A stretch of 6,861 nucleotides of DNA from assembly GCA_023252065.1 (NCBI GenBank), contig JAHEXO010000123.1, positions 1-6,861 on the forward strand, in the 5' to 3' direction. The position numbers and the translations under genes are program-made. Shown piece after piece: positions 1 through 6,352 of the stretch (the first letter of the stretch is position 1; the number at the start of each line of letters is the position of its first letter). This stretch comes from Nocardioides sp. (GTDB lineage: Bacteria; Actinomycetota; Actinomycetes; Propionibacteriales; Nocardioidaceae). Below the pieces are notes generated by a model. It was not told where the DNA came from. It saw only the letters and a list, made by a program, of their open reading frames with translations, and did not search any database.

Positions 1-493
1 CGGCGAGGACCCCGTCGCGGAAGGCGCGCCACGGGACCCACTCGGCGGCGGCCACCTCCGACGCGTCTGGTGTCGGCGCACCGTCGGAGACGGCGACGAA
101 GACCGGGCAGAGCTCGTTCTCCCTGACCCCGTTGGGCATCGTGGCCTGGTAGCGGAACGCCGGCAGTGCGAGCAGGAGGTCGTCGAGGCGCAATCCGAGC
201 TCCTGCTCACCGCGACGCGCCACGGCGCCGACGAGGTCCTCTCCGGGGGCGGGGTGGCCGCAGAAGCTGTTGGTCCAGACCCCCGGGAACGTCCGCTTGT
301 CGAGCGCCCGGCGGGTCACGAGCAGGCGTCCCGCGGGATCGAAGACGTAGCAGGAGAACGCCAGGTGCAGCGGGGTGTCGGCATGGTGGGTGGTGGCCTT
401 CGGGGCAGAGCCGATGGCGTGCCCGGACTCGTCGAGGAGCACGACCTCCTCCTGCTGCTCGATCGGGCGGGTCGAGCCGGCCGGGCCGGTCAT
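1..493 (-). CDS. idi: Isopentenyl-diphosphate delta-isomerase type I (Idi), 3' end cut by window edge
   Basis: Catalyses the interconversion of IPP and DMAPP in the cytoplasm, setting the supply of the allylic primer for prenyl diphosphates. The first 164 residues are visible; E. coli Idi has 182, so only the C-terminus is missing. Read against the E. coli protein, the active-site residues are all present with conserved spacing: metal-binding His36, His43 and His80, Glu125 and Glu127, and catalytic Cys78 in WTNSFCGHP. The RENELCPVF motif (124-132) and the TRRALDKRTFPGVWTN stretch (60-75) are typical of this Nudix-fold family. The ATG at 493 overlaps the stop of the preceding flavoprotein gene as ATGA, and a GAGG lies 5 bases upstream of it (499-502). 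As the last visible gene of a prenyltransferase and polyketide synthase operon, it probably feeds DMAPP to the prenyl donor. Family assignment is firm; the pathway link is inference from context. Confidence 0.96.
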   Translation of the reverse strand, partial: MTGPAGSTRPIEQQEEVVLLDESGHAIGSAPKATTHHADTPLHLAFSCYVFDPAGRLLVTRRALDKRTFPGVWTNSFCGHPAPGEDLVGAVARRGEQELGLRLDDLLLALPAFRYQATMPNGVRENELCPVFVAVSDGAPTPDASEVAAAEWVPWRAFRDGVLA

Positions 494-1515
494 GCCGGCC
501 TCGCCAGCGCGTTGACGGCGACCCCGAACAACGACGGCAGCCGCTCGGCGGCCGGCACCAGCATCCGCCGCAGCGGCGGCACCTGGGTGGCGGTCAGCAG
601 CGAGCCGGTCATCAGCCGGTAGCGCCGCGTGACCGTGTGCCAGTCGGCCTCGTAGCGACCGGCATCGCCGTCGACGAGCGCCGTCACGGCTGCCCGGGCC
701 TGGGCGACGGCCAGGGCGACTCCCTCGCCGGTCAGTGCGTCGACGTAGCCTCCGGCGTCGCCGACCAGCAGCACGCGACCGGCCACGCGGCACCGCGCGC
801 GCTGGCGGAGCGGTCCGGCGCCCAGTACCTCGCCGACCGGCGCGGCGCCTTCGAGGCGCTCCCGCAAGGCGGGGAAGCGGGCGAGGTGGGCGTCGAAGGG
901 GCCGCGAGCCGAGGTCAGCAGGGCGACCCCGACCTCGTCGGGGGCCACCGGCGTCACGTAGGCCTCGACAGCACGCGCCCAGTGCACCTCCACGAACGAC
1001 GTCCAGGGGGCGAGCCGGTAGTGGCGACGAAGCCCGTAGCGGCGCAGGGGGGCCACCCGCTGCTCGAGGCCCAGCCGGCGCCGGACCCCGGAGTGGAGAC
1101 CGTCCGCGGCGACCACGTGGGCGAACCGCTCGCCGTCGACCACTACGCTGTCGCGGCGTTGGCGGAGGTCGTGGGCCGCCCGGGGCTCGGTGACCACGCC
1201 GGCCTCGTCGGCCGCGACGCGCATGGCCGCGTGCAGGGTCGTCCGGCGTACGCCCCGTCCGGGCCCGGCCCGGAACGCAGCCTCGGCACTGCGCCGGCCC
1301 GCGACGTAGCGGATGCCTTGCAGCGGCTCCCCCGCGGGCTCGACTCCGAGATCGGCGAGGGCAGACACCGCGCCGGGCATCAGACCCTCGCCGCAGGCCT
1401 TGTCGAGGACCCCCGCCCGCTTGTCCCACACCGCCACGTCGAGCCCGGCGCGGACGGCGTAGAGCGCGGTCGCCAGCCCGGCCGGTCCGCCGCCGATCAC
1501 GAGGAGGTCCTTCAC
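490..1515 (-). CDS. FAD-dependent oxidoreductase, SrsC/AgqC-like ring hydroxylase candidate
   Basis: A 341-residue flavoprotein of the PHBH/geranylgeranyl-reductase fold. It shows the N-terminal FAD dinucleotide motif GGGPAG (8-13), a DKACGEG motif (38-44) and the second FAD motif GDAGGYVDALTGEG (252-265). The GTG at 1515 is chosen because it sits just before the beta strand of the FAD motif and overlaps the stop of the upstream methyltransferase as GTGA; the longer reading frame upstream only shadows the methyltransferase gene. In the srs and agq phenolic-lipid clusters, a flavoprotein next to the type III synthase and methyltransferase hydroxylates the methylated alkylresorcinol to a methoxyhydroquinone, and this gene holds the same place. 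The KACG-type motif is also found in geranylgeranyl reductases, so a reductase role cannot be excluded. FAD oxidoreductase is firm; hydroxylase is an inference from position. Confidence 0.85.
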   Translation of the reverse strand: MKDLLVIGGGPAGLATALYAVRAGLDVAVWDKRAGVLDKACGEGLMPGAVSALADLGVEPAGEPLQGIRYVAGRRSAEAAFRAGPGRGVRRTTLHAAMRVAADEAGVVTEPRAAHDLRQRRDSVVVDGERFAHVVAADGLHSGVRRRLGLEQRVAPLRRYGLRRHYRLAPWTSFVEVHWARAVEAYVTPVAPDEVGVALLTSARGPFDAHLARFPALRERLEGAAPVGEVLGAGPLRQRARCRVAGRVLLVGDAGGYVDALTGEGVALAVAQARAAVTALVDGDAGRYEADWHTVTRRYRLMTGSLLTATQVPPLRRMLVPAAERLPSLFGVAVNALARPA

Positions 1516-2063
1516 GGCCCGACCTGCGTGGAGGCGGCCGCTGGAGCCGGGGTGTCGTGGAGGGCGGCCAGCGCGTGGTTCTCCACCCGGAGCCGGACGC
1601 TGAGCAGCACGGCGTTGCAGACGGTGAAGACCGCGGCCGTGACCCAGGCCGAGTAGACGAGCGGCAACGCGAACCCCTCGACCACCACGGCCACGTAGTT
1701 GGGGTGGGACAGGAAGCGGTAGGGGCCGCCGGTGACCCGGGGCAGGCCCGGCACGACGATCACCCTGGTGTTCCACTGGTGGCCGAGGGTCGCGATGCAC
1801 CACCACCGCAGGGCTTGGGACGCCACGACGAGCGCCAGCATGGTGAGGCCCAGGGCCGGGATGAACTCCGGACGGCTCCACCACACCTCCACCAGGCAGC
1901 CGACCAGCAGGCCCGTGTGCAGGACGACCATCACGGCGTAGTGACGCCGCCCGGTCTCGACACCGCCGTGGGCCAGGCTCCAGGCGGCGTTGCGCTTCGA
2001 GACGACGAGCTCGGCGAGGCGTTCCAGGCCGACCGCGACCACGAGCAGCGTGTACCAGATCAT
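1512..2063 (-). CDS. Isoprenylcysteine carboxyl methyltransferase (ICMT) family membrane methyltransferase, SrsB/AgqB-like
   Basis: A 183-residue integral membrane protein, probably a SAM-dependent O-methyltransferase. Hydrophobic segments lie near residues 2-21, 42-62, 67-88 and 124-158. The family signature is clear: LGHQWNTRV (93-101), then [18 protein letters not shown] (112-129) with His120, Pro121, Tyr123 and Glu129, and a C-terminal RVENHAL (159-165) that matches the region where ICMT-type enzymes close over SAM. In Streptomyces griseus, SrsB of this family methylates a phenolic hydroxyl of an alkylresorcinol, and this gene directly follows the type III synthase as srsB does. The ATG at 2063 overlaps the synthase stop as ATGA and has a good GGAGG at 2071-2075. 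Cysteine carboxyl methylation is unlikely in a bacterium, so the phenolic-lipid role is preferred by inference. Confidence 0.9.
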
Positions 2064-3148
2064 GCGTCCACCTCCGGGGCACGCAGCAGCACGAGCTCGG
2101 AGCAGAAGCCGGGGCCCATGGCGAGCATCAGCCCGTAGGACCCGGGACGCGGCGGGCGGTCGGCGAGGGTGTCGGCGAGCACGTGGAGGACCGAGGCCGA
2201 GGACAGGTTGCCGATCCGGGCCAGGGAGTCCCAGGTCACCTGGAGCGCCTCGCGCGGGACGTCGAGCGCCGCCTCCATCGCCTCCAGCACCTTCGGGCCG
2301 CCCGGGTGCGCGACGTACCACTCGATGTCGGCGCGGGTCAGGCCCTGGTCGTCCAGGAACCCCTGCACGTCCTCCCCGAGGTAGCGCTCCACCAGCACCG
2401 GCACGTTCGCGTCGAGCACGATCTTCAGGCCGGTCGAGCCGACGTCCCAGCCCATCGTCCGCTCGGAGTCGGGGTAGAGCCGGCTGCGGGTGGCCAGCAC
2501 GTCCGGCTGCGGCGACCCGAGGGGCCCGTCGAGCGCTGCGGCCCGGTCGCTGCCGACCGCTACCACGGCCGCGGCTCCGTCGCCGAAGAGGCCGCTGGCC
2601 ACGAGGTTGGGCATCGAGATGTCGTCGCGCTGGAGGGTCAGGGTGCACAGCTCGACGCTCATCAGCACCGCGACGCTGCCGGGATGACCGACGAGGTAGT
2701 CGTGCAGCCGGGCCACCCCCGCGGCGCCCGCCACACAGCCGAGCCCGACCAGCGGCACCCGGATGACGTCGGGACGCATCCCGGTCAGGGCCGCGACCCG
2801 AGCGTCCAGCGACGGCACGGCGAGCCCGGTGACCGTGGCCGACACGATCAGGTCGACGTCCTGCGGGGTGAGGCCCGCCGCCTTGAGCGCGTCGGTGACC
2901 GCCCTCGCACCCAGCTCGACGCCGACCTCGATGAAGGCGTCGTTGGACTCGGTGAAGCCCTCCAGCTCGCCGTAGCGATGCAGCGGCAGCGCCAGGTGGC
3001 GGTGGTCGACGCGGGCGTTGGCGTGGATCCGCTGGACCACCGTCTCGTCGACCGCGCCGCGGAGCAGGTCGTGGGTGAAGGTGTGGGTCAGCTCCGCCTG
3101 GCTGTGGCGGTGCTCGGGGAGTACGCCTGTGACGCTCAGGACTCGCAT
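2060..3148 (-). CDS. Type III polyketide synthase (alkylresorcinol synthase-like)
   Basis: A 362-residue homodimer-type ketosynthase of the chalcone synthase superfamily, the usual length for bacterial members. The Cys-His-Asn triad is visible: Cys138 in [11 protein letters not shown], His281 in YVAHPGGPK, and Asn314 in [14 protein letters not shown]. The C-terminal [13 protein letters not shown] (343-355) matches the GFGPG loop of the family. Such enzymes extend an acyl-CoA starter with malonyl-CoA and cyclise the chain. With an ICMT-type methyltransferase and a flavoprotein directly downstream, as in srsABC and agqABC, the best guess is a fatty acyl starter and a 5-alkylresorcinol product. 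Alkylpyrone formation cannot be ruled out from the residues I can place. The ATG at 3148 has its own strong ribosome binding site and overlaps the reductase gene by 13 bases. Family is certain; product is inference. Confidence 0.95.
2071..2075 (-). promoter_or_regulatory. Ribosome binding site of the methyltransferase gene
   Basis: GGAGG on the minus strand, 7 bases upstream of the ATG at 2063 and inside the 3' end of the synthase gene. It supports that start over the longer frame reading upstream, and suggests direct initiation as well as coupling through the ATGA overlap. Confidence 0.7.
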
Positions 3149-4341
3149 GGTGGTGACTCCTCGGGGGTGGGGGTGGTCGAAGGGGTGCGTGCGCCGGTCA
3201 CGGATCGGGCGAGCTCACGGGCCAGCCCGCGCGCAACGGCCGGCGTGATCCGGCCCCGGGCCAGCCCGAGCTCCACCAGGTCGTCGAACACGCGCTGGTC
3301 GTTGGAGGCGGCGCGGAGCCCGGCGCCGAGCACGGCGCCGTGCCGGCAGAGTCGGCCGGCCAGCCGGACGTGCCGGAGGTGGGAGTCGAGCAGGGGGCCG
3401 ACCGCGGCGGCGTGGCGGGATCCCGCCGACCCCGGGTCGCCGGCCGCGAGCACCTCGGCGGCGGCGCGCCCGGCGGCCAGGCCGGTGGCGACCGCGTAGT
3501 AGATGCCCTCCCCGGTCATCGGGTTCACGAGGCCGGCGGCGTCTCCGGCCAGCAGGATCGCGCCCGGTCGGGGCCGCCAGCGTCCGGAGGACAACGGCAG
3601 TCGGGCACCCTTCCAGCTCGTGCCGCGCTCGGTGGCGCCGGGGAGGAGCGCGTCCAGTCGGGCCAACAGGTCGGCCTTGGTCAAGCCCGGCGACCCCTGC
3701 TGCGCCTGGCCGGTCAGCACGCCGTACCCGACGTTGCAGAGGCCGTCGCCGCGGTCGAAGGACCAGGCATAGGCCGGACGGCGTGCCGTGTCGAACACGA
3801 TCACCTGCTCCCCGGCGCGCGAGGGCGGGGTCGGCGCGTAGCCGCGTAGCGCAACCGCGCTCGGTCCGGGCGTGAGCCCGAGCGCCTGGCGCACCACGGA
3901 GTGGGCGCCGTCGGCACCCACGACGACCCGGGCCTCGTACCGGTCGTCGAGAACCGTGGGCGCTCCGGGACTCACCCGCCGCACGCGGTCATGGAGCAGG
4001 ACGGCCCCCGCGTCGCAGGCGGCGGTGACCAGGCGCCGGTCGAGCTCGGCGCGCGGGACGACCCAGGCCGCCTGGGCCATCCGACGGCTGACGTCGAGGG
4101 CGCCACGGCGCAGGCGCAGCGTCGACACGGCGACCCGGTCGGCGACGACCGAGCCGGCTCCCACCTCGTCCAGGAGGTCGACGACCTGGGGGGCGATGCC
4201 GTCACCGCAGGCCTTGTCACGGGGGAACGTCGACCGGTCGAGCATCACGACCCGCAGCCCGGGGTCGGCGCGGAGTGCCCCCAGCGCGGTGGCGGCGCCC
4301 GCGGGTCCGGCGCCCACGATCGCGAGGTCCCAGGCCCTCAC
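3136..4341 (-). CDS. Geranylgeranyl reductase family FAD oxidoreductase
   Basis: A 401-residue flavoprotein, within the usual 390-430 range of actinobacterial geranylgeranyl reductase-family proteins. It has the FAD motif GAGPAG (10-15), the family signature [10 protein letters not shown] (39-48) whose cysteine (45) lies near the active site in characterised members, VVGADGAHS (140-148), and the FAD motif [14 protein letters not shown] (266-279). These enzymes use FAD and an electron donor to saturate double bonds in isoprenoid chains of lipids, quinones or prenyl diphosphates. Next to a UbiA prenyltransferase it most likely reduces the attached prenyl group or its donor, as implied by the dihydrogeranyl group made by the agq cluster. 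The GTG at 4341 overlaps the UbiA stop as GTGA; upstream in this frame only shadows UbiA. No clear ribosome binding site precedes it, so it probably depends on coupling. Confidence 0.9.
3157..3162 (-). promoter_or_regulatory. Strong ribosome binding site of the type III polyketide synthase
   Basis: GAGGAG on the minus strand, 8 bases upstream of the ATG at 3148. It lies inside the coding end of the preceding reductase gene. It fixes the synthase start and suggests the synthase is translated at a higher or partly independent rate compared with the two genes before it, whose GTG starts have no clear ribosome binding site. Confidence 0.75.
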
Positions 4342-5174
4342 CCGGACACCACGGTCAGCAGCAGGACGTCGACGAGGGCGATGGCGACCGCGGCGGCGAA
4401 CGGAGCCTTGCCGTGACCGGTCGCGGTCACGAAGGCCAGCGCCGCGACGACGGCGAGCGCCGTCCAGGCCCACGTGGTCGGCGCCCCGGCCGGGCCGAGG
4501 GCGGCCACCACCGAGGCGACCACCAGGAGCACGGTCGCGACCGCGCGGCTCGCGGTGGCCCCGAGCACGTGGGGCAATCCCCGCACCCCCGTGGCGGCAT
4601 CGGTGGCGAAGTCGGGCAGGGCGTTGAGAAAGTGCGCCGCCACGCCGAGGGCCGCCGCCGACGCCATCATCCAGAGGGGTGGCCAGTGGTGGGGTACGTC
4701 GGCCAGCGTGACGACGGCAGGCAGCGTGCCGAACGCGACGGCGTAGGGCAGCCACGACCAGGGCGTGCTCTTCAGCACCAGGTTGTAGAGGTGACCGCAG
4801 CCGACGCCGAGCCCCAGGTGCACGACGGCACTGCGCCACCCGACGAGGAAGGACAGCACCACGCAGGCGACGGCAGCCACGGCCAGCGACGCGCGGACCA
4901 CCGACACCGACAGCTCGCCGTTCGCCAGCGGCTTGTCGAGGCGGCCCGCCTGCCGGTCGCGACCGGCGTCGACGAGGTCGTTGCCCCAGCCGATCGTGAG
5001 CTGCCCGGCGAGGACCGCGGCGGTGACGATGACCCCTCGGGCCAGTGGCAGGTCCTGGCCGACGGCGAGGAGCGCCACGACGGACGTGACCGCGATGGTC
5101 GGACCGATGTGGGCGGCACGGAGCAGGGCGAGTCCGCTGCGCGGAACCGGGGGCACCTCCGCTGAAGTCGTCAC
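4338..5174 (-). CDS. UbiA-family membrane prenyltransferase
   Basis: A 278-residue polytopic membrane enzyme of about eight or nine helices that joins a prenyl diphosphate to an acceptor, usually an aromatic ring or hydroxyl. The two metal-diphosphate motifs are present: NDLVDAGRD (65-73, an NDxxDxxxD) and DFATD (188-192, a DxxxD). Between them are DKPLANG (80-86) and a loop around YNLVLKSTPWSWLPY (130-144), both typical of the family. The start is a GTG at 5174; an in-frame TGA lies only five codons upstream, so no longer protein is possible without a frameshift. No good ribosome binding site precedes this GTG, but the stop of a 16-residue reading frame overlaps it as GTGA. With the type III synthase in the operon, a phenolic lipid is the likely acceptor, as for the UbiA-like enzyme of the agq cluster. 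Acceptor and chain length are inferred. Confidence 0.93.
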   Translation of the reverse strand: MTTSAEVPPVPRSGLALLRAAHIGPTIAVTSVVALLAVGQDLPLARGVIVTAAVLAGQLTIGWGNDLVDAGRDRQAGRLDKPLANGELSVSVVRASLAVAAVACVVLSFLVGWRSAVVHLGLGVGCGHLYNLVLKSTPWSWLPYAVAFGTLPAVVTLADVPHHWPPLWMMASAAALGVAAHFLNALPDFATDAATGVRGLPHVLGATASRAVATVLLVVASVVAALGPAGAPTTWAWTALAVVAALAFVTATGHGKAPFAAAVAIALVDVLLLTVVSG

Positions 5175-5221
5175 AGTCGGCTCAGCGTCTCACGGCCGGT
5201 GGCGGACGTCGTCGTCGTCAT
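5171..5221 (-). CDS. Possible 16-residue leader peptide coupled to the UbiA gene
   Basis: An ATG at 5221 opens a frame reading MTTTTSATGRETLSRL, whose TGA overlaps the UbiA GTG as GTGA, the same junction type used between several later genes. An AGGAG (5224-5228) precedes the ATG, but only 2 bases separate them, shorter than usual. No better start follows within reach of this motif. The frame may be a leader that delivers ribosomes to the weakly initiated UbiA start. Alternatively, it may mark the true UbiA N-terminus displaced by a sequencing frameshift, or be chance. I do not recognise the peptide. Confidence 0.35.
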   Translation of the reverse strand: MTTTTSATGRETLSRL

Positions 5222-5323
5222 GTCTCCTGCAAGCATCGGGTGACCGTCTCGGTACCCGGCCGCGGAGCACCGCATGCAGACCCGGCGTGTGACGTGGGCC
5301 GGCACCGTGAGGCCTGACGCGCC
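5222..5323 (-). promoter_or_regulatory. Intergenic region, likely site of the promoter for the prenyl-polyketide operon
   Basis: This is the only sizeable gap between genes in the window, separating the Gfo/Idh/MocA-type gene from the overlapping biosynthetic run. I find no convincing -35/-10 pair or operator. It contains the AGGAG at 5224-5228 and part of a hairpin at its far end. Promoter content is inferred from layout only. Confidence 0.35.
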
Positions 5324-5326
5324 TCA
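5308..5326 (-). terminator. Short hairpin overlapping the stop codon of the Gfo/Idh/MocA-type gene
   Basis: A perfect 6-base inverted repeat, TGAGGC and GCCTCA, around a 7-base loop; the first arm includes the TGA stop. No T-run follows on either strand, so it is at best a weak or non-canonical terminator or an RNA 3'-end stabiliser. A 6-base stem can arise by chance in DNA this rich in G and C. Confidence 0.3.
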
Positions 5327-6352
5327 GCGCTCGGCCGGGAAGCGCACGCCGAGCTGCGCGCGCACCTCGTCGAGCACCTGCATCATCCGCAGCGTCTCGT
5401 CCAGGGGCAGCAGGTCGGACTCCGTCTTCCCCGCCGTCAGGAGCCGGGCGAACTCCGCGGACTCGTAGGCGAGTCCGTGCTCGCGGCTCGGCGACTCGAA
5501 GCGGTCGAGCTCGTGGTCGTCGGGGTCGAGCAGGTGCACGGTGTTCGGCTGGTAGAACCAGCCGTCGATCTCGACCCGCCCCTTCGTGCCGGAGATCGAC
5601 GCCGCGCACGGGGTCTTGGCGAGCATCGTCGACGAGAGCGTGCCGATCGCGCCCTGGGGCCCGGTGACCGCGATCGTCTCGCCGGCGTCGACGCCCGTGT
5701 CGATCAGCGTCCCGGTCGCCTGGACGGCGGTGAACGCGCCGAGGGCGAGGTGTGCGAACGCGATCGGGTAGATCCCCAGGTCGAGGAGAGCGCCGCCGGC
5801 GAGTGCCGGCTCGGTCATCCGCTCCGGGCCGTCGGGGTGGAGCAGCTGACCGTGGTCGGCCTCGACCGCCACCACCTCGCCCAGGACTCCCTCCTCCAGG
5901 CACCGGCGTACGACGTCGAGGTGCGGCAGGAAGCGCGTCCACATCGCCTCGACGACGAGCAGACCTCGTGCCCGGGCCGCCTCGATGACCGCCGTCGCCT
6001 CGGCGGCGTTGCGGGTGAACGCCTTCTCCACCAGCACCGGCTTGCCGGCCTCCAGCGCGAGCATGGCGTGGTCGTGGTGGGCGGAGTGGGGGCTGGCGAC
6101 GTAGACGGCGTCGACCTCCGGGTCGCCGACAAGGGCCTCGTAGCTGCCGTGGGCCCGCTCGGCCCCGAACTCGGCGGCGAAGGCCTGAGCGCGCTCGAGC
6201 GAGCGCGAGCCGACCGCGGCCACACGCGACGCGGTCCTGGCGTGCAGGGCGGCGGCCCAGTCGTGCGCGATGCCACCAGGAGCGAGCACCCCCCAGCGGA
6301 TGGGCGGGGCGTCGATCGGGTCGGGGATGCGCGAGGACGGCAGCGTCGTCAT
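5324..6352 (-). CDS. Gfo/Idh/MocA family NAD(P)-dependent oxidoreductase (dihydrodiol dehydrogenase-like)
   Basis: A 342-residue soluble dehydrogenase with the usual two-domain layout. The N-terminal Rossmann region holds WGVLAPGGIAHDW (20-32) and VYVASPHSAHHDH (83-95). The family's EKP-type motif is present as EKA (109-111, with Lys110), followed by VEAMWTRFLPH (134-144), which resembles dimeric trans-dihydrodiol dehydrogenases. GGALLDLGIYP (186-196) marks the catalytic helix of the C-terminal domain. Members oxidise or reduce sugars, inositols or cyclic diols with NAD(P)(H); the substrate here is unknown. It starts 7 bases after the stop of the membrane-protein gene, so those two are probably co-transcribed, while about 100 bases separate it from the UbiA operon. 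A role in the phenolic-lipid pathway is possible but nothing in the sequence shows it. Confidence 0.9.
   Translation of the reverse strand: MTTLPSSRIPDPIDAPPIRWGVLAPGGIAHDWAAALHARTASRVAAVGSRSLERAQAFAAEFGAERAHGSYEALVGDPEVDAVYVASPHSAHHDHAMLALEAGKPVLVEKAFTRNAAEATAVIEAARARGLLVVEAMWTRFLPHLDVVRRCLEEGVLGEVVAVEADHGQLLHPDGPERMTEPALAGGALLDLGIYPIAFAHLALGAFTAVQATGTLIDTGVDAGETIAVTGPQGAIGTLSSTMLAKTPCAASISGTKGRVEIDGWFYQPNTVHLLDPDDHELDRFESPSREHGLAYESAEFARLLTAGKTESDLLPLDETLRMMQVLDEVRAQLGVRFPAER

Follow-up and report, generated by a model that had tools for sequence, protein, structure and literature searches.

Type III polyketide synthase (PKS) genes clustered with those for a methyltransferase, a monooxygenase and a UbiA-family prenyltransferase are represented by agqABCD of Actinoplanes missouriensis, which reportedly (Awakawa 2011) directs the formation of alkyl-O-dihydrogeranyl-methoxyhydroquinones; we take agqB and agqC to fill the methyltransferase and monooxygenase roles. 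Published descriptions give the A. missouriensis compounds as 6-alkyl-4-O-dihydrogeranyl-2-methoxyhydroquinones (PMC3569393) and AgqD as an O-prenyltransferase (PMC3227686; PMC4044012), and a cluster of agqA-D orthologues has been read as making alkyl-O-dihydrogeranyl-methoxyhydroquinones (PMC7692728). Two three-gene systems, srsABC of Streptomyces griseus, a phenolic-lipid cluster, and pkqABC of Mycobacterium smegmatis and Streptomyces sp. MNU77, are reported to yield methoxy-methyl-alkyl benzoquinones together with phenol and hydroquinone precursors, and in both Mycobacterium and Streptomyces the pkq polyketide quinones reportedly provide an alternate means of electron transport (PMC9927152). 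Here we describe an operon in a 6,861-nucleotide stretch of Nocardioides sp. DNA (contig JAHEXO010000123.1; hereafter the window) which, judged from its sequence, is probably an agq-type phenolic-lipid operon with a built-in prenyl-modifying module, comprising a candidate chain reductase and an isoprenoid-supply gene.

Six consecutive open reading frames (ORFs) on the minus strand encode, in this order, a UbiA-family prenyltransferase, a geranylgeranyl-reductase-family flavoprotein, the PKS, an ICMT-type methyltransferase, a monooxygenase dependent on flavin adenine dinucleotide (FAD) and an isopentenyl-diphosphate isomerase, idi (Table 1). Adjacent genes overlap by 4, 13, 4, 4 and 4 nucleotides (nt), so that no intergenic base is left within the operon, just as the initial annotation of the window had stated; the gene order was found again in many genomes by tblastn of fetched loci and is therefore not due to chance. 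One cultured relative, Nocardioides caldifontis (L004), gave matches to all six genes. By ORFs and domain search, the PKS, methyltransferase and monooxygenase follow one another on one strand in the srs/pkq core order, and the UbiA-family gene completes an agq-type content, which, at the level of gene families, bears out the earlier proposal of an agq-like cluster extending srsABC. The three core families are identical to those of srsABC, whose published description lacks a prenyl module (PMC6669644), and stand in the same order as in pkqABC, for which the available description gives no prenyltransferase, reductase or idi and a free quinone product that is able to cycle (PMC9927152). The likeness to agqABCD extends to the partly reduced prenyl chain of the agq product class, but in the window UbiA stands in front, and a geranylgeranyl-reductase gene and idi lie in the same overlapping operon, whereas the agq descriptions, in the passages available, name agqA-D only. 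In the part of the literature search results considered, mostly titles and abstract openings, no reductase or idi was reported in an agq, srs or pkq cluster. The three-gene pkq form was present in Rhodococcus and Mycobacterium relatives (L072, L076), and tblastn of these loci and of L074 from the same two genera gave no UbiA match.

Table 1. Features of the operon and of the short reading frame preceding it, in window coordinates
Feature	Coordinates	Strand	Length and start	Family or other evidence
UbiA-family membrane prenyltransferase	4338..5174	-	278 aa, GTG start	PF01040
Geranylgeranyl-reductase-family flavoprotein	3136..4341	-	401 aa, GTG start	TIGR02032 above cut-off; best PDB match 3oz2
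Type III polyketide synthase	2060..3148	-	362 aa, ATG start	Chalcone/stilbene synthase N and C domains
ICMT-type membrane methyltransferase	1512..2063	-	183 aa	PF04140; SrsB/PkqB-like by position and family
FAD-dependent monooxygenase	490..1515	-	341 aa	FAD_binding_3; SrsC/PkqC-like by position; TIGR02032 below cut-off; no prenyl-reductase motif
idi, type 1 isopentenyl-diphosphate isomerase	2..493	-	first 164 codons	PRK03759 and TIGR02150 above cut-offs
16-codon ORF, MTTTTSATGRETLSRL	5171..5221	-	ATG start	AGGAG at 5228-5224; 4-nt overlap with UbiA start

For comparison, 81 rows were assembled around the PKS (the window and 80 fetched loci), and neighbours were counted in the 58 whose flanks measured 2.7 kb or more on each side, the other 23, window included, being set aside for short flanks. 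Neighbouring genes were located by tblastn, the queries being the proteins of the window and one epimerase from L025; this replaced longest-ORF gene calling with cross-locus conservation, whose gene boundaries were unreliable at such a G+C content. Because choosing loci by their PKS biases any estimate of linkage, UbiA and, separately, the reductase were also used as queries against 394 actinobacterial genomes drawn regardless of PKS. On a PKS tree built by a quick method, the window sequence groups with Nocardioidaceae; its nearest row, L001, comes from a Nocardioides metagenome bin (85% PKS identity) and pairs with it at 94% in the Shimodaira-Hasegawa-like approximate likelihood ratio test, the wider placing being less well supported.

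The best solved relative of the synthase is mycobacterial Pks11 (4jao; 394 bits over residues 4-356 of 362), which is listed among alkylresorcinol-forming enzymes (PMC5916927). Its structure was deposited under the heading "Alpha-pyrone synthesis", which favors a synthase that makes alkylpyrones and a cluster leading to methylated, prenylated pyrones instead of hydroquinones, but this is very unlikely in our judgment, as a monooxygenase is conserved beside the synthase in 56 of the 58 loci (a methyltransferase in 57) and Trp234 in 80 of the 81 rows (Phe in L063). A Trp tied to resorcinol formation has been reported for ArsB, SrsA, FtpA, PKS10 and PKS11 (PMC5916927), and Trp234, which sits in an MGWD motif common to the window synthase and Pks11, is probably the equivalent of that residue in ArsB. 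Cys138, His281 and Asn314 are present in all 81 rows, window included.

The UbiA-family protein carries two Asp-rich motifs, NDLVDAGRD at residue 65 and NALPDFATD at residue 184; a PDB search with it returned no relative, only two chance-level matches. UbiA lies near the PKS in 46 of the 58 loci. In the reciprocal search, the 30 best UbiA matches had 54-76% identity, and four of them came from genomes that the PKS search had already brought up. A PKS was found no more than 1.5 kb away for 28 of them, and for one more, L130, the whole cluster came into sight in a wider view; the exception, G382, gave no PKS match at E 1e-40. Eighteen places were taken from ranks 31 to 50 (47-55% identity), 11 of them with a PKS within 5 kb. 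Gephyromycinifex, too, has been described with a UbiA gene adjoining srs-like genes (PMC8779670). UbiA-family relatives that have no PKS match nearby occur in many Actinobacteria (L113, L114, L118, L120, L121, L125, L126 and other lower-scoring places), and matches at 36-42% identity are found even in very small genomes (1.2-1.5 Mb).

The reductase is linked to the PKS as well. It lies near the synthase in 36 of the 58 loci (the L017 match is only a fragment), and matches occurred in 81 of the 394 genomes, with a PKS adjoining 24 of the 30 best; one of these, G019, was already known. Among the remaining best matches, the reductase stood apart in G143, G196 and G312, with PKS and UbiA together elsewhere in the genome, the PKS was elsewhere in G048, and G138 and G407 gave no PKS at E 1e-40. 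All 30 genomes have a UbiA match. The prenyl module (UbiA and reductase) is thus coupled to the PKS core. Pseudonocardia G018 holds a second reductase copy (C7:160490-161614; 49% identity) about 11 kb from the operon copy.

Two flavoproteins in one operon raise the question of which does what. The operon reductase scores 171.3 bits against TIGR02032 and passes its cut-off of 158.8, the monooxygenase falls below it at 104.9 bits, and the best PDB match of the reductase, 3oz2, is a digeranylgeranylglycerophospholipid reductase. Active prenyl reductases are reported to have an active-site Cys and a YxWxFP motif, which in archaeal enzymes reads YxWxFP(x7-8)GxG (PMC6309074); the window protein has Cys45 (in CGDG) and YxWxF...GxG, with Asp at the Pro position. 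The YxWxF...GxG pattern occurs in 40 of 40 reductase copies (matches above 150 bits) and in none of 75 monooxygenases (matches above 120 bits). From the profile score, the structural match and this distribution, we assign chain reduction, provisionally, to the first flavoprotein and ring hydroxylation to the second, and the earlier idea that the reductase is the source of a partly saturated chain gains support from both profile and motifs. That the reductase-family protein might instead be a second ring hydroxylase or a quinone-modifying oxidase, leaving the prenyl chain unsaturated, would suit a family related to hydroxylases, the resemblance of the operon monooxygenase to the same profile, and an Asp where characterized enzymes have Pro, but the evidence just given makes it improbable.

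The prenyl-modifying genes could also have nothing to do with the polyketide. A UbiA-family protein and idi belong to general isoprenoid metabolism, UbiA relatives occur in 201 of the 394 genomes, and 7 of the 18 places from ranks 31 to 50 have no PKS nearby, all of which would fit UbiA, reductase and idi serving general isoprenoid or menaquinone metabolism and merely sharing a transcript. Against this, separate menaquinone-type prenyltransferases were found in all 20 relatives' genomes searched, with MenA above its cut-off in 11 and a TIGR01475 enzyme, which we take to be the prenyltransferase of the futalosine route, above its cut-off in nine, all of them Streptomyces. Proteins like MenJ (575-629 bits; model cut-off 700) are encoded by separate genes in seven of the 20, whereas the operon reductases reach only 83-110 bits with the MenJ model and the window reductase 97.6 bits with NF045655 (MenJ, cut-off 700). 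Window UbiA scores 22.9 bits against TIGR01475 (cut-off 180.8), and TIGR00751 gave no match to it in the profile search. In 10 genomes (G001, G002, G004 and G014-G020), the operon UbiA and the MenA or TIGR01475 gene lie in different places; in the other 10, the low TIGR01475 score of window UbiA suggests that the two are likewise distinct. Moreover, 13 tested genomes that lack the reductase in the cluster show no match above about 100 bits elsewhere (in four, none at E 1e-20), and in Jiangella the adjacency of UbiA and PKS is kept although the UbiA-reductase pair is inverted. A menaquinone role for UbiA and the reductase was accordingly rejected in the relatives tested, where, as first supposed, the two genes go with the PKS cluster, and we regard the general isoprenoid role as highly improbable.

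Actinobacterial menaquinones typically have reduced prenyl side chains, and MenJ, a prenyl reductase that acts on a prenylated aromatic, resembles the operon reductase in its predicted role, although its separate genes and the distance of the operon reductases from its model set it apart. It is conceivable that UbiA prenylates a ring carbon, with the reductase then saturating the chain as MenJ does, to give an alkyl- and prenyl-substituted redox quinone serving as a respiratory carrier. In favor of this, the core matches the pkq operon, the source of the reported electron carriers (PMC9927152), and both Asp-rich motifs are present in UbiA. However, AgqD, the only UbiA protein found described from such a cluster, O-prenylates (PMC3227686), polyketide quinones are reported to function without a prenyl group (PMC9927152), and the relatives carry separate menaquinone-type genes. 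We therefore consider C-prenylation unlikely. It is similarly doubtful that Nocardioides, Pseudonocardia, Streptomyces and others would make a C-prenylated quinone beside menaquinone by means of an in-operon prenyl reductase and isoprenoid supply.

Under the agq-type reading, which we prefer, the PKS would extend a long-chain acyl starter to an alkylresorcinol or alkylresorcylic acid, the ICMT-type enzyme would O-methylate this product (SrsB is said to methylate decarboxylatively), and the monooxygenase would hydroxylate the ring to give a methoxy-alkylhydroquinone. UbiA would use a prenyl diphosphate to prenylate the ring, most likely at an oxygen as in the AgqD reaction, the reductase would hydrogenate at least one double bond of the attached chain, and idi could balance dimethylallyl and isopentenyl diphosphate under the extra demand. 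The predicted product, a methoxy-alkylhydroquinone in ether linkage to a partly saturated prenyl chain, would probably be a lipid of the membrane or envelope, and the product first predicted for this DNA, a methoxylated alkylhydroquinone or quinone with such a chain, would fit the known agq class. The initial annotation had further offered two roles, redox carrier or membrane modifier. A hydroquinone mono-ether cannot be oxidized to the quinone without loss of the prenyl group, so O-prenylation of the AgqD kind would block quinone cycling; the carrier role is thereby disfavored, and a membrane lipid is the more likely of the two.

Several observations weigh against this reading, in addition to the heading under which Pks11 was deposited. 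The agq-type assignment is set by gene families and published agq descriptions; no product is on record for this organism, nor was any found for a close relative. Four Phytohabitans strains with agqA-D orthologues are reported not to have shown the expected ions in culture extracts (PMC7692728), which may mean that clusters of this kind are silent or yield another product. Asp (Asn in one) replaces the Pro of characterized prenyl reductases in the 12 commonest motif variants. The nearest row, L001, lacks a reductase in its cluster, and none was found in its genome at E 1e-20, so the clade can do without the reduction step. At four Nocardioidaceae loci (L013, L048, L056 and L008), the reductase, idi or both are present in a cluster that gave no UbiA match; UbiA matches elsewhere in the genomes of the first three reach only 41-46% identity, and in those of L008 and L011 the match lies at a contig end, which may reflect an assembly break. 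Finally, in paired tests on the PKS tree, there were too few independent pairs to tell whether idi tracks UbiA or the reductase.

The idi product scores 226.7 bits with PRK03759 (cut-off 127); the contig end truncates the gene at window base 1. It lies near the PKS in 16 of the 58 loci. Across all 80 fetched loci, which include some with short flanks, 20 have idi within 5 kb of the PKS: 12 downstream on the PKS strand, seven upstream on the opposite strand and one upstream on the PKS strand. These three arrangements argue for repeated recruitment, although the paired test on the tree was too small to settle this. A protein of the NAD-dependent epimerase/dehydratase family is encoded near the PKS in 21 of the 58 loci (e.g., L025:127-1203), often just upstream of UbiA, and 18 of the 21 also have a reductase match; in L017, epimerase and reductase are both partial matches, as if decaying together. 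Independent pairs were again too few for the paired test of whether the epimerase follows UbiA or the reductase. Proteobacterial and myxococcal relatives (L069, L070, L075, L078 and L080) gave no UbiA match, and a gene grouped with fatty acyl-AMP ligases lies nearby in L069 (9716-11464), L070, L075 and L078, and also, on the opposite strand, in Mycobacterium L076, which suggests a different starter-loading route in those relatives. Neither the Gfo/Idh/MocA oxidoreductase nor the gene beyond had a counterpart in the fetched loci, apart from L012, which matches the second of the two at 60%. Among the records used, L019 and L020 stand under different Pseudonocardia species names although their PKS sequences are identical and their matches coincide position for position, possibly a labeling issue, and L182, a circular Nonomuraea record of 11.85 Mb that is, by its size, likely a chromosome, is filed in a plasmid collection as "plasmid I".

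The operon had initially been given the span 1..5221. The gene block within that span holds, but 5221 is not the start of UbiA, whose GTG codon is at 5174; it is the ATG of the 16-codon ORF. No ORF similar to it in sequence was found upstream of UbiA in the 11 relatives compared; some of these have other short overlapping ORFs before UbiA, such as one of 19 codons in L010 with an ATG start and without an AGGAG-like ribosome site. A leader peptide was considered on account of the good ribosome site and dropped, as it has no counterpart in the 11 relatives. A frameshifted UbiA N-terminus was also dropped: UbiA homologues are equally 277-278 aa long, including one with 78% identity in Nocardioides sp. 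(P0008) that equals the window protein in length. A pattern scan of 5100-5400 for sigma-70-type promoters and terminators gave no match.

The agq lipids bear a dihydrogeranyl chain, and the reductase responsible is not named in the passages available from the agq papers; the operon reductase, usually encoded beside the prenyltransferase, is a concrete candidate, and its presence or absence among relatives offers a natural comparison. The analysis also keeps apart two readings that are readily confused, O-prenylation, which would give a lipid unable to cycle, and C-prenylation, which could give a respiratory quinone. Of the two, only C-prenylation, if true, would extend the polyketide-quinone story and keep the carrier reading alive.

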